NCBI RefSeq assembly: GCF_022695985.1
Contig: NZ_JAAPBF010000001.1
Span: 62,001 to 126,000, forward strand
Source of the DNA: Streptomyces sp. NP-1717
Lineage (GTDB): Bacteria; Actinomycetota; Actinomycetes; Streptomycetales; Streptomycetaceae
Length of the DNA stretch: 64,000 nucleotides
Direction: 5' to 3'
Shown here: in pieces, positions 16,080 to 25,997 of the stretch
How positions within the stretch are numbered: the first letter of the stretch is position 1
Layout: each line of letters opens with the position of its first letter
Position numbers and translations under genes: made by a program
Notes under the pieces: generated by a model
Told to the model about the DNA's origin: nothing
Databases searched by the model: none
What the model saw: only the letters and a program-made list of their open reading frames with translations

Positions 16080-17726
16080 ATGGTGCACGACAGGGCCGGG
16101 CAGCCGGCGCAGCCCGAAGATCTGGTGGACGTGGCACGGCTGGTGACGGCCTATTACGCGCTGCATCCGGATCCTGCCGAGCCCGCGCAGCGGGTCACAT
16201 TCGGTACGTCGGGGCACCGCGGCTCCGCCCTGGTGGCGGCGTTCAACGAGGACCACATCGCGGCCACCACCCAGGCCATCTGCGACTACCGGACCCGGCA
16301 GGGGACGGACGGGCCGCTGTTCCTGGGCGCCGACACCCACGCCCTGTCCGAGCCGGCCCGGGTCACGGCGCTGGAGGTACTGGCAGCCAACGGCGCGACC
16401 GTCCTGATCGACTCCGACGACGGCTACACGCCCACCCCCGCCGTGTCGCACGCGATCCTGACGTACAACCGGGGCCGCACCGGGGGCCTCGCCGACGGCA
16501 TCGTCGTCACGCCGTCGCACAACCCGCCGGCCGACGGCGGGTTCAAGTACAACCCGCCCAACGGCGGCCCGGCCGGCTCGGACGCCACCTCCTGGATCCA
16601 GGACCGCGCCAACGCCCTGATCGAGGCGGGCCTCAAGGAGGTCCGCCGGATCCCGTACGCGCGGGCGCTGGCCGCCGACACCACGGGGCGGCACGACTTC
16701 CTGGGCCGGTACGTCGACGACCTGCCGTCGGTCCTGGACCTGGACGCGGTCCGCGCGGCCGGGATCCGGATCGGCGCGGATCCGCTGGGGGGCGCGTCCG
16801 TTGCGTACTGGGGCCGTATCGCGGAGCGGCACCGGCTCGACCTCACGGTGGTGAACCCGCTCGCCGACCCGACCTGGCGGTTCATGACGCTGGACTGGGA
16901 CGGCAAGATCCGGATGGACTGCTCGTCGCCGCACGCGATGGCCTCGCTGATCGCGCAGCGCGACAAGTACACCATCGCCACCGGCAACGACGCCGACTCC
17001 GACCGGCACGGCATCGTCACGCCGGACGGCGGTCTGATGAATCCCAACCACTATCTGGCCGTCGCCATCCAGTACCTCTACGCGCACCGTGACAGCTGGC
17101 CGGCCGGTACGGGCATCGGCAAGACCCTGGTCTCCTCCTCGATGATCGACCGGGTCGCCGCCGACCTCGGCCGGACGCTCGTCGAAGTGCCCGTGGGATT
17201 CAAGTGGTTTGTCGACGGTCTGTACGACGGGAGTCTGGGCTTCGGCGGCGAGGAGAGCGCCGGCGCGTCGTTCCTGCGCCGTGACGGGAGCGTGTGGACG
17301 ACCGACAAGGACGGCATCCTGCTCGCCCTGCTGGCCTCCGAGATCACCGCGGTCACGGGCTCCACCCCCTCTCAGCACTACGCGGCGCTCGCCGACCGCT
17401 TCGGCGCCCCGGCCTATGCCCGCGTGGACGCCCCCGCGACGCGGCAGGAGAAGGCGGTCCTCGCGAAGCTGTCGGCCGACCAGGTCACCGCCGACACCCT
17501 GGCGGGCGAGCCCATCACCGCCGTCCTCACCGAGGCGCCGGGCAACGGGGCGGCGATCGGCGGCCTGAAGGTGTGCACCGACAGCGCCTGGTTCGCGGCG
17601 CGTCCGTCGGGCACCGAGGACGTGTACAAGGTGTACGCGGAGAGCTTCCGCGGCCCCGAGCACCTCGCTGAGGTGCAGGAGGAGGCGAAGACGCTGGTGT
17701 CCACGGCCCTGCGCGCGACGGCCTGA
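16080..17726 (+). CDS. pgm: Phosphoglucomutase (alpha-D-glucose-specific)
   Basis: A 548-residue enzyme that interconverts glucose 1-phosphate and glucose 6-phosphate, feeding glycogen, trehalose and cell-wall sugars. The four active-site loops are present: phosphoserine loop VTPSHNPP with Ser146 (same number as the E. coli Pgm phosphoserine), metal loop [10 protein letters not shown], sugar loop GGEESAGAS and phosphate-binding [10 protein letters not shown]. Length equals the E. coli type. ATG start with GGAG 7 bases upstream. It is the only obviously central-metabolic gene nearby and could receive the product of the GH65/HAD pair. Confidence 0.95.
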
Positions 17727-17794
17727 CGCGAGGCCGCCCGCGGGGGCGGGCCCACGAAGTATCGGCCCGGCCCGCGACGCCTCTCACCCCTGGG

Positions 17795-17920
17795 CCGTGT
17801 CCGACAATCCCGGCCGGTCGGCGACGCCTGGCACGGCAGCGCACCGCGTTGTCGTCGGACGGCACCGTAGGCCCAGTCCGAGCCCGGCCCTCCGCCTCGC
17901 GGTGCACGGCACCAGACCAG
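17795..17920 (-). repeat. Intergenic repeat, degenerate copy A
   Basis: Reading the minus strand from about 17918, GTCTGGTGC, GAGGCGGAGG, CGACAACGCGG and TGCCGTGCCAGGCGTCGC match, in order and spacing, the two copies at 24805-25144. The terminal inverted repeats are not clear; only a weak GGGCCGTGTCC remains near 17795. It lies in a 445-bp gap (17727-18171) between convergent genes, in which I see no gene. The short plus-strand frame beginning in the repeat is an artefact of it. Confidence 0.7.
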
Positions 17921-18171
17921 TCACTCCATGACGGGCGCCGGCCCCGCCGGGCTGCTGGTACCGCTCTCGACGGTCGACATCGTCGACACGGGCTCGGGCG
18001 CGTCAGTGGACTTCCCGGACGCCCGGCGTCCGCGCGCCGGCGATGTCGACCGCCCTGGCCTGCGGGCGGACGGAGCTGCCTGTCGGGTGCGGCCCAGGGC
18101 CGTGGAACGTACTCCCCCCGCGCCCGCTCCCTGACGAACCATCAACATCGTTGTCATGCAGTGGTGTTCAG

Positions 18172-19047
18172 TCACCGACCGGCCGGGGCGACCTCCACCG
18201 CGAGGTCGTTGTCGACCGTGTAGTACGGACGCACCGTCACCCCGCCGAGCGTGGCGGCCGGGTAGACGAAGACCGTCTTGCGGTCCGCGACGTCGTCCAG
18301 CAGGCGGGCCACCCGGATTCGCGGCGCGTCGGCGGCCGGGCGGACGTAGACGTCCCAGATCGCCGGTGCCGCTCCGGCCCCGCCCTGTCCGCCGTCCGCC
18401 GACAGGTCCCGGTAGTCGACGGTGAACGCGAAGTCCTGGTCCCCCTCGGGCCGGAGCGTGATCCGCCGCTCGGCGCCGTCACGGCCCCGCCGGTGCAGCG
18501 ACGCCGCCGCGCCCTCCCCCAGCCGGGCGCCGAACAGCCGCGCCGTCACGGTCATCGAGTCGCCCGAGAAGTCGATGCGCCCGGCCTCCGCGTGCGTGGC
18601 ACGCAGCCAGGCCCGTACGGCGAGACGGCCGTCCTTGGTGACGTACGGGATCCGGACGGCCAGCGGCGACGCCCGGCCGTCGCCGGCGCCGGACACCAGC
18701 GCGCGCAGATCGCGCAGGCCGGGCAGCAGCGGTAGGCGCTCCTCCCCCGGCGCGCCCAGGACGTACATGTCCCAGCGGCCCTCCTCAAGTGCGGGTGCCA
18801 CGTCCAGGACGGCCCGCCACCGGTCCTGGCCCGCGGGCTCCAGCGCGACGACGCGGCCGGTCTCCTGCTCCGACCGCCCCTTCGGCGGGCGCGGTCGGAG
18901 CAGCAGCCGGGGCCGCGCGGTGTCGGGCAGCGGCATCGTCACGCTCACGACGAACCGCCCCTCGGCGTCGACGGTCGCGTCCGCGCGCGGCTTGTCCACC
19001 GGCCCGTTCGGTCCGTCTTTCGTACCGCCGTTCGTACCGCCGTTCAT
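18172..19047 (-). CDS. Conserved protein paired with glycosyltransferase
   Basis: A 291-residue protein with no signal peptide or membrane helix. It starts with a short Gly/Asn/Lys-rich tail and then appears all-beta, with alternating segments such as RFVVSVTMPLP, WDMYVLGAPG, IWDVYVRPAADAP and VRPYYTVDNDLAVEV. The two WDxYV segments suggest a duplicated beta-sandwich. I do not recognise the family. It overlaps the upstream GT4 gene by 4 bases (ATGA at 19044-19047), so it is co-translated and probably assists or modifies the same glycan or glycolipid. It could itself be a transferase, but no catalytic motif is visible. Confidence 0.7.
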   Translation of the reverse strand: MNGGTNGGTKDGPNGPVDKPRADATVDAEGRFVVSVTMPLPDTARPRLLLRPRPPKGRSEQETGRVVALEPAGQDRWRAVLDVAPALEEGRWDMYVLGAPGEERLPLLPGLRDLRALVSGAGDGRASPLAVRIPYVTKDGRLAVRAWLRATHAEAGRIDFSGDSMTVTARLFGARLGEGAAASLHRRGRDGAERRITLRPEGDQDFAFTVDYRDLSADGGQGGAGAAPAIWDVYVRPAADAPRIRVARLLDDVADRKTVFVYPAATLGGVTVRPYYTVDNDLAVEVAPAGR

Positions 19048-20300
19048 CGCCGGGCCTTCCGTACGGTCCGCACGACGCTGCTGGCCGCGACGAGCGCGGT
19101 GTCCTTCGCCGCGTAGCCCCCGCTCACCAGCGCGTGGTCCGTGCCGCGCGCCGGTTGCCGGCCGTCGCGCCGGGCCGCCAGCAGTTCCTCGAACAGCCGC
19201 TCGGCCTGGGCCACGACGGGGCCGGGGGCGTAACGGCGGGAGTTCTCCAGCGCGGTGCGCCCCATCCGGCGGCGCAGTTCGTCGTCGCGTACGAGGTCCA
19301 GCAGGGCGCCGGCCAGCGCGTCCCGGTCGCCGACCGGGACCAGCCGGCCGTCCTCACCGGGGGTGATGATCTCGCCGGGGCCGTACTCGCAGTCGGTGCT
19401 CACGACGGGCAGCCCGCAGCGCATCGCCTCGACGATGGTCATGCCGAACGGCTCGAAGTTGGAGGTGGCCGCTCCGATCGAGCCCTTGACCCACTCGGCT
19501 TCCATCGGTGTCACGGCGCCCATCAGAAATACGTTGTTGTGCAGGCCGAGCCGGTCGATGAGCCCGCGCAGCCTCTCCCGCTCCTCGCCCTTGCCGTAGA
19601 TGCGCAGTTGCCAGTCGGGGTGCTCGGCGGCGACCGCGGCGAAGGCTTCGATCAGCAGGTCGAACCGCTTCACGGGCACCAGCCGTCCGGCGGCCATCAC
19701 GACGCGCTCGCGGCCGTCGGCCGGCGGGAGGGTCGGGGCGGGGACACTGTTGGGCAGCGCCCGCACGTGTACGCCCGGCAGCCGCATCTTGCGCCGGTAG
19801 GCGGCGGCGTCGGCCTCCGTCACGGGGGTGATCGCGTCCAGGCGCGGGTAGACCCGGCGCAGCGCGTTGCGCAGGCGCGGCGGGTGGTTGTTGAGCGTGA
19901 GGTGTTCCTGTCCGACGCGTACCGTCCGCTCGGGGGCCTGGAGGGCGAGGTGCACGTTGAGCCCGGGGCGGGTGCCCACGACGACGTCGGCGTCGAGCGA
20001 TGCCAGCGCTTCGCCGATGCGCTCGTCGGTGAGCGCGCTGTACTGGCGGTAGCGGTACTCGGACGAGGGGAAGATCTTCGCCGGTGTCAGATGCCGCGGG
20101 TCGTTCTTCTCGTGCCGCAGATCCACCAGCGGACGCAGCCGCACGCGCGGGTCGGGTGTGAGGTTCGGCCGCTCCCGGTGCCGGAGAGCCGAGATGATCT
20201 CCACGTCGTGCCGATCAGCCAGCGCGCGAGCCAAGTTGAACGTGGTCGTGATCGTCCCTCCTATCCCATACGCGTTGTGTATAAGAAATGAGATCTTCAT
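19044..20300 (-). CDS. Glycosyltransferase family 4 (GT-B fold)
   Basis: A 418-residue retaining glycosyltransferase. The N-terminal Rossmann domain opens with MKISFLIHNAYGIGGT, the donor-side GG loop. The C-terminal domain has VVMAAGRLVPVKRFDLLIEAF, IYGKGEERERL and the E-x7-E motif in EPFGMTIVEAM. It transfers a sugar from an activated donor to an unknown acceptor at the inner membrane face. I place the start at the ATG at 20300; another ATG three codons upstream (20309) is equally possible and neither has a good ribosome site. It is coupled to the beta-rich protein downstream. Confidence 0.85.
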   Translation of the reverse strand: MKISFLIHNAYGIGGTITTTFNLARALADRHDVEIISALRHRERPNLTPDPRVRLRPLVDLRHEKNDPRHLTPAKIFPSSEYRYRQYSALTDERIGEALASLDADVVVGTRPGLNVHLALQAPERTVRVGQEHLTLNNHPPRLRNALRRVYPRLDAITPVTEADAAAYRRKMRLPGVHVRALPNSVPAPTLPPADGRERVVMAAGRLVPVKRFDLLIEAFAAVAAEHPDWQLRIYGKGEERERLRGLIDRLGLHNNVFLMGAVTPMEAEWVKGSIGAATSNFEPFGMTIVEAMRCGLPVVSTDCEYGPGEIITPGEDGRLVPVGDRDALAGALLDLVRDDELRRRMGRTALENSRRYAPGPVVAQAERLFEELLAARRDGRQPARGTDHALVSGGYAAKDTALVAASSVVRTVRKARR

Positions 20301-20528
20301 GCCGTGCATGACGGGTTGCGCCCGATGAAGGTTGCTCGCGTAACCCCTTGGTAAGAAGAAAGGCGCCTCGCCGTGACCGGGCCGGCTGACGCGCCGTCGG
20401 ATGCGGACCATGCGCGAGACCGCCGGAGCATTTGCCGCATTACGCTGTTTTACCGGCAATATGATCGGGAAGGCGGCCCTGTGGACCGACCCCGCACTGC
20501 TGTCGAGGCAGCACGAGAAGGAGCGACC

Positions 20529-21356
20529 ATGACCGCGGTACCCGACATCACGCTGAACAACGGGGTGGAGATCCCCCAGCTCGGCTTCGGCACCTTCCAG
20601 ATCCCCTCGGCCGACACCCGGGAGGCGACGCTGGCGGCGCTGGAGGTCGGCTACCGGCACATCGACACCGCGCAGATGTACGGCAACGAGAAGGAGGTCG
20701 GCCAGGCGGTACGCGACTCCGGGCTCGACCGGGGCGACATCTTCGTCACCAGCAAGCTGAACAACCCCTTCCACGCCCCCGACGCCGCGCACGCCGCGTT
20801 CGACCAGAGCCTTGAGGACCTCGGGCTGGAACATCTCGATCTCTTCCTGATCCACTGGCCGCTGCCCGGCGTCGGGGACTTCGTGGAGACCTGGAAGGCG
20901 CTGGAGGAGATCTACCGCTCCGGCCGGGTGCGCGCCATCGGTGTCTCCAACTTCCAGCCGAACCACCTCCGCCGCCTCATGGCCGGCTCCGTGGTGGTTC
21001 CCGCCGTCAACCAGATCGAGGCGCACCCGTATCTGACCCAGGACGAGGTCAGGGCGTTCAACGCCGAACAGGGCATCGCGACCGAGGCCTGGTCCCCCAT
21101 CGCCAAGGGCAGGGTGCTGGAGGACCCGATCATCGCCCGTATCGCGAACGAGGCCGGCCGCACACCCGCGCAGGTCGCGCTCCGCTGGCACATCCAGCGC
21201 GGCGACATCGTCTTCCCGAAGTCGGTGACCCGCAAGCGGGTCGAGGAGAACTTCGCCCTGTTCGACTTCGAGCTGGGCGAGGCCGACATGGCCGACATCT
21301 CGGCCCTGAACCGGAACGAGCGCACCGGCCCCGACCCCGACCTCATGAACGGCTGA
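20529..21356 (+). CDS. Aldo/keto reductase
   Basis: A 275-residue NADPH-dependent TIM-barrel reductase of the AKR5 (2,5-diketogluconate reductase) type. Signature motifs are GYRHIDTAQMYGNEKEVG (catalytic Asp and Tyr), VTSKLNN (Lys) and LFLIHWPLP (His). The cofactor site includes VFPKSVTRKRVEEN. The start ATG has GAAGGAG upstream. A TATGAT box at 20460-20465 could be the -10 element, about 60 bases before the start. No neighbour indicates the substrate; it may be a general detoxifying reductase. Confidence 0.9.
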   Translation: MTAVPDITLNNGVEIPQLGFGTFQIPSADTREATLAALEVGYRHIDTAQMYGNEKEVGQAVRDSGLDRGDIFVTSKLNNPFHAPDAAHAAFDQSLEDLGLEHLDLFLIHWPLPGVGDFVETWKALEEIYRSGRVRAIGVSNFQPNHLRRLMAGSVVVPAVNQIEAHPYLTQDEVRAFNAEQGIATEAWSPIAKGRVLEDPIIARIANEAGRTPAQVALRWHIQRGDIVFPKSVTRKRVEENFALFDFELGEADMADISALNRNERTGPDPDLMNG

Positions 21357-21445
21357 CGCCCGGCCCCCTGCCCGGTCCATGACCGATGTTCCAACTCCGC
21401 AACCGTGGTCGGAGATCGGTCCGCGCATACGGCAAAATCTGTCGC

Positions 21446-22516
21446 ATGACCGAACAACGGGGCAGCGCACCACCACAGAGCGCCACGGACGAGACCCTCG
21501 CGGCTCTGGCTGTCCGCCTCCGCGCGTCGGACACCGGCGGCTGGACGCGGGACGCCACCCGGGCGCTGGTCGTCCGGCTCGGCTGGGGCTGGAGCGACAG
21601 TCCCGTCGTGGCCACCGGCCGCTCCACCGGTGACGCGCGGCTGCGCCCGGTCGGGAAGTACGAGGAGCGTCACGTGAGCGGGGAGGCGTACGTCGAACTG
21701 GCCGTCCCCGTACGGCACGCCGAGCCGGACGCCGCCTCCCAGGCGGAGGCGTTCCGGATCGCGAAGGACGAGCTGACCGGCGCGCTGGGCGAACCGTCGA
21801 TCATGGGTGTGCACGGCAGGCTCGCGCCGTTCCTCGGCACCGTGGGGAGCTGGGGCTCGCCGTACCTGCGCTGGCGCGGTGAGTCGGACACGCTCGAACT
21901 GCGCGCGGGGCGGACGGGGCCCGAACTGGTCCTTCAGCCGACCGATCCGGCGGAGAGCTGGTTCGTACGCCAGGGGAACGGCGAGGAGCACGGGATAACC
22001 GGCTTCTTCGGCTTCCGGTCCGACCCGTCGAACGGGGGTCTGACCTTCCCCGGCGGCTGGCGGGCCCACAGCTGGGAGTCGGTGACCAGGGCGCTCGCCG
22101 CCTTCCTGACCACGCTGCCGGCGGAGACGACCGCGCTCCGGACCCCGATGTGGATGCCGATCTACGGCCGCATCAAGGGGAAGGGCGCACCGATCCTGTT
22201 CGACATCGACTGCGGGGACCGGCTGATGATCGCCTCCTTCGCGGACGAGGAGATCGATCCGGCGTCGCTGGGCTGGGGCACGGCGGCCGAGTACCCGACG
22301 ACCGGCCGTCCCTGGCCCGACGCCCGCCACCCGCGGCTGCGCATCGACGCGGGCGGTCCCGGCGAGCCCTCCGGCGAGGCGCTGGCCGGGACGATCGTGG
22401 CGACCGCCCGGGCGATGGGCGTGGAGTCTCCCGAGGACCTGCTGATCGGCACCGAGGCCGGGGACGTGGGCGAGTACCGCGTGACGTACTACGGGCTGGG
22501 TCTGTCGATGGCGTGA
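21446..22516 (+). CDS. Hypothetical protein with two tandem related halves
   Basis: A 356-residue cytoplasmic protein I do not recognise. The first part (LAALAVRLRASDTGGWTRDATRALVVRLGWGW) resembles the short helical module at the start of several actinobacterial uncharacterised families, followed by mixed alpha/beta segments (WGSPYLRWRGESDTLELRAG). A second part starts near residue 190 (GGWRAHSWESVTRALAAFL) with beta-rich WMPIYGRIKGKGAPILFDIDCGDRLMIA. No catalytic motif stands out. The ATG at 21446 is chosen because upstream codons overlap the promoter region. It stands alone between a reductase and a methyltransferase. Confidence 0.65.
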   Translation: MTEQRGSAPPQSATDETLAALAVRLRASDTGGWTRDATRALVVRLGWGWSDSPVVATGRSTGDARLRPVGKYEERHVSGEAYVELAVPVRHAEPDAASQAEAFRIAKDELTGALGEPSIMGVHGRLAPFLGTVGSWGSPYLRWRGESDTLELRAGRTGPELVLQPTDPAESWFVRQGNGEEHGITGFFGFRSDPSNGGLTFPGGWRAHSWESVTRALAAFLTTLPAETTALRTPMWMPIYGRIKGKGAPILFDIDCGDRLMIASFADEEIDPASLGWGTAAEYPTTGRPWPDARHPRLRIDAGGPGEPSGEALAGTIVATARAMGVESPEDLLIGTEAGDVGEYRVTYYGLGLSMA

Positions 22517-22531
22517 GCGGCGATTCGCGTG

Positions 22532-22573
22532 GACCGGTCACGGTGGCCTCATCATCGTTGACCGGTCACCGTG
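22532..22573. repeat. Paired 14-base repeat before methyltransferase gene
   Basis: GACCGGTCACGGTG at 22532-22545 and GACCGGTCACCGTG at 22560-22573, 28 bases apart and differing at one base. The CACGGTG and CACCGTG ends are also complementary. Placed 39-80 bases before the methyltransferase start, they may be an operator pair or a hairpin ending the preceding gene. Confidence 0.4.
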
Positions 22574-22611
22574 CAGTGATCAACTCACCGCCGCTGTGGG
22601 AGACTTGCCGC

Positions 22612-23397
22612 ATGACGGCAGGGACGCCCAAACCTCAGGTGGACACCGGCAAGCCGCACCCGGCGCGGGTCTACGACTGGCTGCTCGGCGGCAAGGACCA
22701 CTACGAGGTCGACCGTCTGGTGGGCGAGAGACTGCCGCCCGAGTCCAAGGACGGCGCCCGCCAGAACCGGGCGTTCATGCACCGCGCCGCCGCCTGGCTG
22801 TCCGGCGCCGGAGTCACACAGTTCCTCGACATCGGCACCGGCATCCCCACCGAGCCCAACCTGCACCAGATCGTCCAGGCGTCCACGCCGGCCGCGCGCG
22901 TCGTCTACGCCGACAACGACCCCATCGTCCTGCGTCACGCCGAGGCCCTGCTCGTGAGCACGCCCCAGGGCTCGACCGACTACATCCAGGCCGATGTGCG
23001 CAAGCCGCAGGACATACTGCGACACGCCCGCGCCACCCTGGACTTCGACCGGCCGATCGCGCTGTCGCTGATCGCGCTCATGCACTTCGTCCCGGACGAC
23101 CAGGGCCCGTACGACATCGTCTCCAGCCTGGTCGACGTCCTGCCGTCGGGCAGCTATCTGGTGCTGTCGCACGCCGCGTCCGACATCGTCCCTGAGCTGT
23201 CGGACAAGGTCGTCGCCGAGTACGCGAAGGGCGGCATCAGGCTGGGATTCCGTACCCACGCCGGGGTCGGCCGCTTCTTCGACGGTCTCGAACTGGTCGA
23301 CCCCGGACTGGTGACGGCGCCCTCGTGGTTCAAGGACACGGACGCTCCCGCCGAGGAGATGAGCGGCATCTACGCGGGCGTGGCCCGCGTCCCGTAA
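22612..23397 (+). CDS. SAV2177/DUF574-type SAM methyltransferase
   Basis: A 261-residue protein of the large actinobacterial family of putative SAM-dependent methyltransferases. Family hallmarks are PHPARVYDWLLGGKDHYEVD near the start, RQNRAFMHRAAAWL, and the SAM-binding FLDIGTGIPTEPNLHQ. VVYADNDPIVLRHAEALL carries the acidic residue that would bind ribose hydroxyls. Start ATG with GGGAGA 8 bases upstream. The family is highly paralogous in Streptomyces and its substrates are mostly unknown. No neighbour clarifies its role. Confidence 0.88.
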   Translation: MTAGTPKPQVDTGKPHPARVYDWLLGGKDHYEVDRLVGERLPPESKDGARQNRAFMHRAAAWLSGAGVTQFLDIGTGIPTEPNLHQIVQASTPAARVVYADNDPIVLRHAEALLVSTPQGSTDYIQADVRKPQDILRHARATLDFDRPIALSLIALMHFVPDDQGPYDIVSSLVDVLPSGSYLVLSHAASDIVPELSDKVVAEYAKGGIRLGFRTHAGVGRFFDGLELVDPGLVTAPSWFKDTDAPAEEMSGIYAGVARVP

Positions 23398-23525
23398 CGC
23401 GATTCGCGTAACCGGCGGCTCGTGCGCGGCGGCGACGCGTCCGGGTCGCTGCACTCTCGCGCGGCCCGGTGCGGCTTACGCTGCGGTGGCTCCACTGCCG
23501 TCCAGCGGGAACGAGGTGCTGTGGG

Positions 23526-24326
23526 ATGCCGACGACCATGCGCAAGTGGGCATGGCTGCCCGTCCTGGTCCTTGGGCTCGGGCTCTACTTCCTCGTACAG
23601 GGCACCCTCATCGACACCGGCAATGTCAACTACGTACCGTCCATGATCCTGTTGGGCGCGGTCGTCGTCCCCCTCGCCTTCCTGACCTTCGTCGCCGGGC
23701 GTACGGGCGAGTGGCGGATCGGGCCGTTCGTGCTGGCGATCGCGGCGCTGTTCGGCGGCGTGGTCGGGATCGTGACCGCCGGACGGCTGGAGTTCGACAC
23801 ACTCCGCGGCCTGGGCACCTCGACCCTGATCGGCATCGGCCTGATCGAGGAGTCGTGCAAGCTCATCGTGCCGGTACTGATCCTGGTGTGGCAGTGGCGG
23901 CGCGGCACCGTGCACGTCGCGGACGGGCTGCTCATCGGGGTCGCGGCGGGGATGGGGTTCGCCGCGCTGGAGACGATGGGGTACGCCTTCACGGCGCTGC
24001 TGGCGTCCCAGGGGAACATCGGGGACGTCGAGGAGACCCTGTTCCTGCGCGGGCTGACCTCACCCGCCGCCCACATGGCGTGGACCGGGCTCATCTGCGG
24101 AGCGCTGTGGGCGGCCGTGGCGGCGCGGTGGTCGCTCGCCGCCACCGTACGACTCGTGATCACCTTTGTGTTCGCGGTCGCCCTGCACGCGCTGTGGGAC
24201 GGTGTCACCGGGCGCGCCGCGTACTTCCTCCTGGCCGCGGTCTCGCTCGGCTGGCTCCTCGTCGAACTCCACCGGAGCAACACCCTGACCTGGGACAGCC
24301 CGTCCGGAAGCGTACGACGCCCGTGA
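23526..24326 (+). CDS. PrsW-family intramembrane metalloprotease
   Basis: A 266-residue membrane protein with about seven or eight hydrophobic segments. The PrsW motifs are in order: IEESCK (EExxK, about 107-112), GFAALETMGYAF (FxxxE, Glu about 149), AAHMAW (His about 183) and ALHALWDG (His about 221). These side chains form the zinc site inside the bilayer. PrsW of Bacillus starts cleavage of an anti-sigma factor; here no sigma or anti-sigma gene is adjacent. ATG at 23526 behind GAGGTG; ATG at 23538 is an alternative start. Confidence 0.82.
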   Translation: MPTTMRKWAWLPVLVLGLGLYFLVQGTLIDTGNVNYVPSMILLGAVVVPLAFLTFVAGRTGEWRIGPFVLAIAALFGGVVGIVTAGRLEFDTLRGLGTSTLIGIGLIEESCKLIVPVLILVWQWRRGTVHVADGLLIGVAAGMGFAALETMGYAFTALLASQGNIGDVEETLFLRGLTSPAAHMAWTGLICGALWAAVAARWSLAATVRLVITFVFAVALHALWDGVTGRAAYFLLAAVSLGWLLVELHRSNTLTWDSPSGSVRRP

Positions 24327-24347
24327 GGGCGCGCTAGGTTGGCACCC

Positions 24348-24824
24348 ATGTACTCCACCCAGGTCTCCCGGCGTGTACGGGCCCCGCGAGCGGTTGTCTA
24401 CCGAGCCCTGCTGGACGGCGACGCGGTCGCAAAATGGCGCGTGCCCGCCGGTATGAGCAGTCAGGTGCATGAGTTCGACGGCCGGGAGGGCGGGCGGTTC
24501 CGTGTCTCGCTCACCTACGACGCGCCGACGGGCACCGGGAAGTCGGCGCCGAACACCGACACGTACCACGGGCACTTCGAACGCCTCGTACCGGACGAAC
24601 GGGTCGTGGAGGTCCTTGAGTTCGAGACTCCCGATCCCGCGATGCGCGGCAGCATGATGATCACGACCACGCTCAACGACGTGGACGGCGGTACGGAGGT
24701 GGTCCTGCTGCACGAGGGGGTCCCGGACACCGTGCCGACCGCGGACAACGAGACCGGTCAGCGCATGGCACTGGACAATCTCGCCCGGCTCGTCGAAGGG
24801 GGCCAGGGCCTGTCTTCAGAGTAG
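24348..24824 (+). CDS. SRPBCC (AHSA1-type) domain protein
   Basis: A 158-residue START-like fold protein (SRRVRAPRAVVYRALLDGDAVAKWRVPAGM...FETPDPAMRGSMMITTTLNDVDGGTEVVLLHEG...). Family members bind hydrophobic ligands or stimulate Hsp90; the function here is unknown. The ATG lacks a ribosome site. A TAGGTT element at 24335-24340, 8 bases before it, fits a leaderless promoter. The last seven codons (GQGLSSE) and the TAG stop lie inside the terminal inverted repeat of the intergenic repeat that begins at 24805, so the element has replaced the original C-terminus. Confidence 0.82.
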   Translation: MYSTQVSRRVRAPRAVVYRALLDGDAVAKWRVPAGMSSQVHEFDGREGGRFRVSLTYDAPTGTGKSAPNTDTYHGHFERLVPDERVVEVLEFETPDPAMRGSMMITTTLNDVDGGTEVVLLHEGVPDTVPTADNETGQRMALDNLARLVEGGQGLSSE

Positions 24825-24982
24825 CGCCGTCCGCCCGTAGGGCGGGGCCTGGGCGTCTGGTGCGGTGCATCGCAAGGCGGAGGACCGGCCTCGTACCGGG
24901 CCGTACTCGGCCGCGTCCGACAACGCGGCGAGGTGCCGTGCCAGGCGTCGCGGGCCAGGCGGGACTTTGAAGACAGGACCTA
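24805..24982 (+). repeat. Intergenic repeat, copy B
   Basis: About 178 bp with imperfect terminal inverted repeats. AGGGCCTGTCTTCA at 24805-24818 pairs with TGAAGACAGGACCT at the right end (24968-24981). The core shares GTCTGGTGC, CGCAAGGCGGAGGA, CGACAACGCGGCGAG and GTGCCAGG with copies A and C. Its left end lies inside the 3' end of the SRPBCC gene; its right end shares the CCTAGGGCC junction with copy C. No transposase is present, so it is a non-autonomous or structural repeat. Confidence 0.8.
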
Positions 24983-25144
24983 GGGCCTGTCTTTTGGATC
25001 AGGCCGGATCAGGGAGCGGGGTCTGGTGCGTGCGATCGCAAGGCGGAGGAGGGAGGCATGGCGGAGCCATGCCGACCGACGACATCGCGGCGAGCGTGCG
25101 TGCCAGGGACCGCGAGCCCGGCAAGATCCGAAAGACAGGCCCTA
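24981..25144 (+). repeat. Intergenic repeat, copy C (most complete)
   Basis: A 164-bp element bounded by 20-base terminal inverted repeats with one mismatch (TAGGGCCTGTCTTTTGGATC at 24981-25000 against 25125-25144). In the middle is a perfect hairpin, GGCATGGC-GGA-GCCATGCC, at 25055-25073. It follows copy B in the same orientation. A MITE-like palindromic element or a structured RNA is possible. The surrounding 378-bp gap contains no gene. Confidence 0.85.
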
Positions 25145-25202
25145 GCGGCCGGCCCGGTTGAACCGCGGCGGTACGCGAACGGCTCACGGTGGCGGCCACA
25201 CG

Positions 25203-25997
25203 CTACGAGCGGCGGCCGGGTTTGCCGCGCCTGCCGCTCTTCGCCCCGCCCGTACCGCCACCGCGGGAGTTCTTCCCCGTCGGCTTGCCGGCCGCGGGCT
25301 TGCGCCGCGCGCCGCCCGCGTCGGAACGCCCTGACTTCGCCTTCGACGCCTGCTGCTCCTGCGCCGGGGCCGGGCGGCGGCCCCGTGAGCTGTTGACGGT
25401 GCGCCCCCGGACGATCCCGATGAACTCCTCGACCAGGTCGGTGGTCCGCTCCTCCGGCCACGACAGGGCGACACGCGACTCGGGGGCGCCGGAGACCGGC
25501 CGGTAGGTGAGGTCCTTGCGGTGGTGCAGCCGGGCGAGCGACTGCGGGACGACGAGGAGGCCGATGCCCGCCGCGACCAGTTCGACGGCGTCCGCCGTCG
25601 TGGCGGGGCGCTCGTTCGCGGGCCGTCCGGGCAGCCGCCCCTCCCAGTCGAGGGTGTCGTCGAGCGGGTGCAGCACGATGTCGTCGGCGAGATCCGCGAC
25701 GGACACCTCGTCGGCCGCGGCCACCAGGTGGTCCTTCGGGACGACGACCACGGTCGTCTCGGTGTAGAGCGGGATCGCGCTGAGATCGGTCCGGTCGACC
25801 GGCAGGCGCAGGAATCCCGCGTCCGCGCCGCCCGCGCGCAGCGTGTCGGCCGCTTCCCCCGCCGCCACCGGGGTGAGGGTCAGCGGGATGTCGGGCAGCC
25901 GCTCGTTCCAGATCCGCACCCACTTGCCGGGGATCACTCCCGGGACGTACGCGAGGCGGAACATGGGGGACGCGAGGGGTACCTCCGAGCCTGTCAC
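25203..25997 (-). CDS. LysR-type effector-binding domain without HTH, basic tail
   Basis: A 264-residue protein. FRLAYVPGVIPGKWVRIWNERLP through LVEEFIGIVRGR (about 12-205) is a LysR-type substrate-binding domain with both alpha/beta lobes (ADAGFLRLPVDRTDLSAIPLYTETTVVVVPKDHLV). There is no winged helix-turn-helix before it, only about 11 residues. After residue 205 comes a disordered tail of about 58 residues rich in Lys, Arg, Gly and Ser (RRGKPGRRS at the end), which could bind nucleic acid. GTG start without a ribosome site. It is divergent from a DUF5997 gene; the pair could form one regulatory unit. Confidence 0.78.
   Translation of the reverse strand: MTGSEVPLASPMFRLAYVPGVIPGKWVRIWNERLPDIPLTLTPVAAGEAADTLRAGGADAGFLRLPVDRTDLSAIPLYTETTVVVVPKDHLVAAADEVSVADLADDIVLHPLDDTLDWEGRLPGRPANERPATTADAVELVAAGIGLLVVPQSLARLHHRKDLTYRPVSGAPESRVALSWPEERTTDLVEEFIGIVRGRTVNSSRGRRPAPAQEQQASKAKSGRSDAGGARRKPAAGKPTGKNSRGGGTGGAKSGRRGKPGRRS

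Follow-up and report, generated by a model that had tools for sequence, protein, structure and literature searches.

A probable IS5-type miniature element family of Streptomyces with a conserved folded core, different ends and residence at stop codons

A 64,000-nucleotide stretch of Streptomyces sp. NP-1717 (contig NZ_JAAPBF010000001.1, positions 62,001 to 126,000; the window) carries three copies of an intergenic repeat within 7.4 kb, which raises the question of what kind of element this is. The original prediction offered a miniature inverted-repeat transposable element (MITE), a repetitive extragenic palindrome (REP)-like structural repeat and an RNA element. The repeats are very probably a MITE family of IS5 type, with a folded core that is proposed to help their persistence or spread. 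They are of a known kind, the IS5-type MITE, with two unusual traits: stop codons of neighbouring genes that are rebuilt, and a deeply conserved folded core found between different ends.

All three predicted copies were recovered in the window, by blastn against the 64 kb (A/B, 111 bp aligned, 80% identity, E 2.5e-22; B/C, 140 bp, 74%, E 2.6e-10; A/C, 94 bp, 73%, E 1.4e-6) and by a covariance model of 38 sequences from which copies A, B and C had all been excluded (B, E 9.9e-20; C, E 1.9e-16; A, E 6.7e-9). The remaining hits of this model up to E 1 were two, at E 0.8 and 0.89. The description of these as copies of one repeat stands as regards family and common core, with the refinement that A is decayed and that B and C are, by their sequence, two subfamilies. 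Copy B (24804-24982, plus strand; GGG...ACC) has CA at its left edge (24804-24805), where TA is expected, and TA at its right (24981-24982). Its terminal inverted repeats (TIRs) lie at 24806-24828 (plus; GGGCCTGTCTTC...) and 24958-24980 (minus), and its folded core at 24843-24960 (plus), with conserved motifs at 24870-24883 and 24921-24932. Copy C (24981-25144, plus strand) reads TA-GGGCCTGTC...GACAGGCCC-TA, 164 bp including both TA, with its folded core at 25008-25122 (plus) and conserved motifs at 25036-25049 and 25083-25094. The inverted ends and perfect central hairpin described for the best copy were both found in it: the arms (24980-25007 and 25118-25145) are 28 nt long and 89% complementary, and the hairpin spans 25055-25073 on the plus strand (GGCATGGC GGA GCCATGCC). 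B and C are intact and adjoin, the TA at 24981-24982 being common to both; their first 12 bases (AGGGCCTGTCTT) are identical and the core is common, while the remaining TIR and subterminal parts differ. Copy A (17795-17932, minus strand; predicted at 17795-17920) has a core-model hit at 17812-17932 (minus), and its closest other genomic match is 82% identical.

An absence of further copies, named beforehand as the outcome that would refute the original prediction, was not seen: the repeat unit, about 164-185 bp and non-coding, is dispersed in many copies in the host genome (8.03 Mb, 460 contigs). DNA searches scored up to 40 candidates per genome, so that copy counts are lower bounds: at least 50 host matches to C are listed and at least 44 to B (40 of 292 first-look candidates scored), the two sets overlapping and including some fragments. 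A 16-nt core motif occurs with at most one mismatch at 82 host sites, with 0 for a reversed-pattern control, and 74 own copies were collected full length from fetched host loci. The suggestion of similar sequences in other Streptomyces also fits, as the core motif has at least one site in 105 of 150 genus genomes (range 0-82, the host being highest). Among plasmids W01-W08, no full-length copy was clearly present in some and absent from others, W06 and W08 each carrying a single additional partial match; phage records gave no match to the repeat, and viral contigs gave no exact match to the two-motif core pattern. REPs, which are associated with a RAYT transposase, are palindromes of 20-40 bp, whereas the present unit of about 165-185 bp has TIRs; by its size and ends the REP-like option is not supported, with no search made for RAYT genes.

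The MITE-like option was upheld by TIRs resembling those of IS5 elements, a CTAG target, empty sites and patchy copy number. TIR classes among the 74 own copies were GGGGGTGTCCGCGAAGT, GGGCCTGTCTTCAAAGT, GGGCGTGTTTCGAAAGT, GGGCCTGTCTTTTGGATC and GGGGGTGTCTTGTCGATC, plus rarer ones, and the class was the same at both ends in 54 copies and mixed in 4, with an unclassified end in 16. Where the TA is present, it is preceded by C on the left in 36 of 38 copies and followed by G on the right in 43 of 54; a putative target duplication could be of 2 bp (TA) or of 4 bp (CTAG), which look alike in these copies. CTAG is very rare in the window (4 observed against 67.6 expected from dinucleotide shuffles), and copy C accounts for two of these with its ends. 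Of the CTAG sites away from copies, 5 of 11 found across 29 other genus loci serve as a called stop, compared with 3 of 25 in the surroundings of own copies and 0 of 2 within the window. Besides B and C, abutting copies occur at L003, L008, L010 and L017; together with the mixed ends, these suggest that elements recombine and that the CTAG at the end of one can be used repeatedly. A palindrome of about 60 bp with two facing GGGGCCTGTCGTTTGGATC-type ends was also seen (L071:1004-1061), MITE-like and without the core. Empty sites, which the original prediction had proposed as a check, were seen in three settings: the orthologous site of the window in G044, the plasmid site of L128 in 5 related plasmids (too diverged for a base-precise duplication), and five own host loci for which orthologues without the element were found.

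A transposase with matching ends was likewise sought, and IS5-type elements with resembling TIRs were found. On its right, the host element G000:C334 (L083) ends in CCTAGGGGGTGTCCGCAAAGTCACGGG, which is close to GGGGGTGTCCGCGAAGTCCCG, the largest of the MITE classes. Genome contigs were scanned with a piece of the L083 transposase and the best 80 of 274 loci taken; a TIR pair was readable in 62 of the 80, with CTAG at both ends in 47 of these and TAG near both ends in 51, neither being required by the search. TIRs resembling other MITE classes were found at L190 (TCTGTCTTCAAA) and L173 (CTGTTTTGTGGATCA), with a weaker partner for one C class at L175 (GTCTTGTCGATCA; TIR pair below the score cut-off) and a less certain one at L204 (GTCTGACAAAGGATC), where the insertion sequence (IS) is cut by the contig start. 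Overall, the TIR match to an autonomous IS is close for the GGGGGTGTCCGC class and looser for other classes. Host IS copies L078/L080 and L087 were rejected as partners, their TIRs matching no MITE class. The four transposases tested belong to the NCBIfam NF033580 IS5 family (transpos_IS5_3), with a DDE_Tnp_1 domain. Members of this family share with the repeats TIRs, CTAG flanks and ends at stop codons; the repeats differ in being without a transposase gene, and their core was hit in only 1 of 54 IS loci, there within a MITE abutting the IS end. B and C have a parallel at L141:2593-3621, where one CTAG is common to an IS5-type element and the core-bearing MITE (TIR GGGGGTGTCTTGTCGATC) that adjoins it. 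The elements at L048:18-179 and L128:2967-3126 have the same core with the TIR GGGCTGTCCCGT(A/C)ATCCC, which repeats (TCCCGTAAATGATGG) at a host PF13359 transposase locus, L086, resemble; this class may be driven by transposases of a second group.

A further property of the insertions is their residence at stop codons. Of the 74 own copies, 71 lie outside the window, and both neighbours were called for 64 of these. For 37 of these 64 copies, the TA target together with the first G of the element makes up precisely the TAG at which a neighbouring gene stops (17 cases on the left, 20 on the right). Every other stop distance, in the range from 30 bp ahead of the element to 60 bp inside it, occurs at most once. 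A second set, of 69 cores whose neighbours were both called, came from plasmids, from other genomes of the genus and from other families: a gene stop lies within 100 bp in 47 of them, and 39 of the 58 such stops are TAG, compared with 62 of 193 called stops in these loci overall and about 23 of 135 among stops not near cores. Plasmid loci L118-120, L121-123 and L124-125 are near-identical, so that these stop counts are somewhat inflated. In another family, at L319, L320 and L321, the two genes that converge on the element both stop in TAG, one at either end of it. IS copies also end in the stop of a neighbour (15 of 47 resolved, from 52 loci given, of 80; 5 of the 47 come from one Micromonospora genome).

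Element-less orthologues indicate what was present before insertion. Joined flanks, complete for 12 copies and half for a thirteenth, served to search 295 genus genomes, and orthologues were aligned at five loci, rows from other loci having been dropped before counting (5 of 28 at L032, namely L215, L220, L228, L233 and L241; 1 of 2 at L049, namely L235). The same stop codon is used in 39 of 47 orthologues and one a codon away in 8 of 47. At L032 the stop is the same in 22 of 23 and one codon later in 1 of 23; at L045 (6/6), L053 (8/8) and L049 (1/1) it is the same throughout; at L050 it is the same in 2 of 9 and one codon earlier in 7 of 9. CTAG itself stands at the empty site in some orthologues (L217 at L032, L246 at L045). 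These insertions therefore hit native stops or the next codon and leave the protein unchanged or nearly so. Stop-codon residence with the stop rebuilt is thus well demonstrated, and it has a simple cause, the likely reason being the choice of CTAG as target combined with strong avoidance of CTAG. In the window, A, B and C all lie between convergent genes according to a simple GC3-based gene caller, whose stops match the annotation on L118, L126, L127 and L128 (a few short annotated genes were missed); the genes flanking A end at 17726 (plus) and 18172 (minus). An ORF at 24339-24824, whose product we take to be SRPBCC-like, runs into B and ends at the TAG at 24822-24824 inside the left TIR.

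The second unusual trait is the core of about 100 nt, which is common to elements with different TIRs in Streptomyces and outside its order. Within the order, 205 of 245 genomes gave a core match, and so did 7 of 8 genera. A class-wide search matched the core in 96 of 394 genomes (33 from the host genus), although many weak matches may be due to chance. From the better matches outside the order, 20 places in 14 genomes of five families were fetched, and all 20 hold both core motifs, TCGCAAGGCGGAGG and CAACGCGGCGAG, neither of them with more than two changes; by eye, most lie in inverted repeats with different ends and TAG or CTAG flanks. The loop motifs of 12-14 nt are nearly invariant, while ends, inner hairpin and spacer length vary between families. 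In cores from outside the order, GAG / CGA repeats often stand ahead of the inner hairpin (L329:1001-1085) and could make several tandem G.A pairs.

The stems of the core were analysed in alignment A1, which holds 38 of 153 cores (4 double fetches removed): 35 of 49 representatives below 88% identity, together with L320, L326 and L330. The 14 representatives excluded by hand were 11 from the host (including copy A) and 3 from the genus, several being truncated or decayed; L219 is a host locus, though labelled as genus in the core comparison. On A1, 88.1% of cells are paired in the named structure, and its covariation score is 0.360, compared with 0.115 (standard deviation 0.010) for shuffles and at most 0.151 for slid controls; shuffles can be outscored by related sequences that have no structure, and slid controls are usually outscored by a structure derived from the very sequences under test. 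Counts of both-side changes are less prone to the former effect, and these occur in 18 of 28 pairs against 12.5 in shuffles. RNAalifold returned the same outer and middle stems (23 pairs, 15 with both-side changes). Pairs in the outer stem also distinguish the strands: among the 49 representatives G-U was counted 156 times and A-C 12 times. In the contiguous register of this stem the counts were 181 and 16 (13 columns against 4), and 69 and 9 for the 16 sequences from outside the order. Folding z-scores of five cores ranged from -3.7 to -5.6 for plus strands and from -0.65 to -3.0 for minus strands. The G.A/A.G step beside a CAA bulge becomes CC/GG or GC/GC in some families; a kink-turn reading of this step was discarded, as its polarity is wrong and Watson-Crick pairs stand there in some families. 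Rfam 15 gave no match up to E 1 in window positions 17500-25500, and at 10 further loci four matches (E 0.003-0.97), all far below the gathering score and judged to be chance; one sub-threshold match, to mir-1397 (E 0.32), lies over the core of L322. Invariant loops, covarying stems, the excess of G-U and the folding difference between strands together indicate that one strand has probably been selected to fold. The suggestion of an RNA element is thus partly supported, as regards core covariation and strand preference across families; the preference for a strand is compatible with RNA and also with single-stranded DNA.

The favoured explanation joins these observations as follows. TIRs of 15-20 bp would be acted on in trans by a DDE transposase of IS5 type, and insertion at CTAG would duplicate TA or CTAG. 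Because the element ends begin with GGG, an in-frame TAG would be rebuilt on insertion into the TA of a stop codon, and surviving copies would gather at stop codons, often of convergent genes, because CTAG is very rare elsewhere. The core would have been kept across families while the surrounding TIRs came to match different IS5 lineages, since it would help the element to persist or spread. It would work as a folded plus strand, more likely as RNA than as single-stranded DNA. The copies, the resemblance of their TIRs, the target, the position at stop codons, the empty sites, the covariation and the strand asymmetry are observed directly; movement by an IS5 transposase, transcription and a job for the core are what we infer from the sequences.

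Several observations weigh against this explanation. Regarding the partner, the frame of L083 is broken and its left end is without a CTAG flank; two family searches of the host found only this one IS with a matching TIR. For the GGGCCTGTCTT classes, the host yielded no intact partner. Regarding the target, TA stands at both ends in 31 of the 74 own copies; another 30 have it at a single end and 13 lack it altogether. Empty sites were seen in species of roughly 70-90% identity, with no transposition event or duplication resolved to the base in a very close relative. Window copy B is a near miss rather than an exact stop-codon case, the gene stopping at 24824. As for the core, 4 of 18 outer-stem columns lean towards A-C across species, and with a structure chosen without G-U the ratio of G-U to A-C in own copies is weak (50:36 for B, 8:7 for C). 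Copies at stop codons show no clear bias in orientation relative to the genes (16 sense, 23 antisense), which makes a cis role on mRNA unlikely.

Among other explanations, it is rather unlikely that the core, read as single-stranded DNA, is a site of recombination or replication (attC- or REP-like) that provides a second route of movement. A long imperfect hairpin with one strand favoured would suit such a site, as would the lack of clear gene-orientation bias, which is more in keeping with DNA than with mRNA; a consensus of attC or REP kind was not recognised, no scan for one having been made. That these are plain selfish MITEs, the core being passive filler that is alike through horizontal spread and common descent, appears improbable. 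Inner sequence is usually kept by descent, and a patchy copy number, from 0 to 82 motif sites, is what such elements would be expected to show, but loops that stay nearly invariant while ends, inner hairpin and spacers differ between families, stems that change on both sides with G-U pairs kept, and a core that is no part of the IS argue otherwise. An element useful to the host, acting as a bidirectional terminator or mRNA stabiliser at gene 3' ends, is distinctly improbable. Neighbouring gene pairs of the own copies (25 convergent, 7 divergent and 32 tandem of 64) and of genus loci (32, 30 and 52 of 114) lend it some support, as does the strong hairpin; the position, however, follows from the CTAG target and is seen alike for IS copies, invariant internal loops would be unneeded, and folding is far poorer on the minus strand. 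Template switching in a DNA palindrome, known in bacterial palindromes, could keep arms complementary without selection, but is highly improbable here, as it would erase mismatches, whereas wobble pairs persist and flip (columns 27:98 of A1: UG 26, GU 9, CG 3) and the TIR stems of 56 of the 74 own copies show a small G-U lean (24 to 10; 5 columns against 7).

Comparison with known systems places the IS5-type MITE reading among other short bacterial repeats. Correia/NEMIS, RUP and ERIC elements are described, in a 2007 review (PMC2229807), as shorter than 200 bp with TIRs, terminal TA and a long stem-loop, the TIRs of RUP being common with IS630-Spn1. The present repeats are likewise short, with TIRs, TA at the ends and a long stem-loop; unlike those elements, they combine one core with many ends across actinomycete families and rebuild the stop codon. 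The invariant loops and covarying stems are like those of the structured RNA families in Rfam, among which no convincing match was found in release 15. In eukaryotes, CORE-SINEs have a conserved central domain between different mobilising ends; the present repeats are bacterial DNA elements with DDE-transposase ends, and shared ancestry is not suggested. A survey from 2010 reported 104 RNA motifs (PMC2864571), and the word Streptomyces is absent from the text of a 2024 MITE review (PMC10969869). No such Streptomyces element was seen among the literature matches listed, which is weak evidence since these were titles and abstract openings with subscription journals thinly covered.

A broader reading is offered tentatively and with some doubt: the core may be a new class of functional folded nucleic acid (regulatory RNA, ribozyme or single-stranded DNA site), the real inherited unit that moves among actinomycetes, swaps its ends as IS5 lineages replace one another and uses stop codons as safe harbours. 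Targeting of stop codons would explain how many insertions are carried without protein damage in high-GC, gene-dense genomes. The core is also a marker for intergenic regions left blank by annotation. A folded motif with near-invariant loops in 205 of 245 genomes of an order is a target for both RNA and DNA biochemistry, and different ends around a constant core provide a bacterial system for asking what a non-autonomous element gains from its inside.

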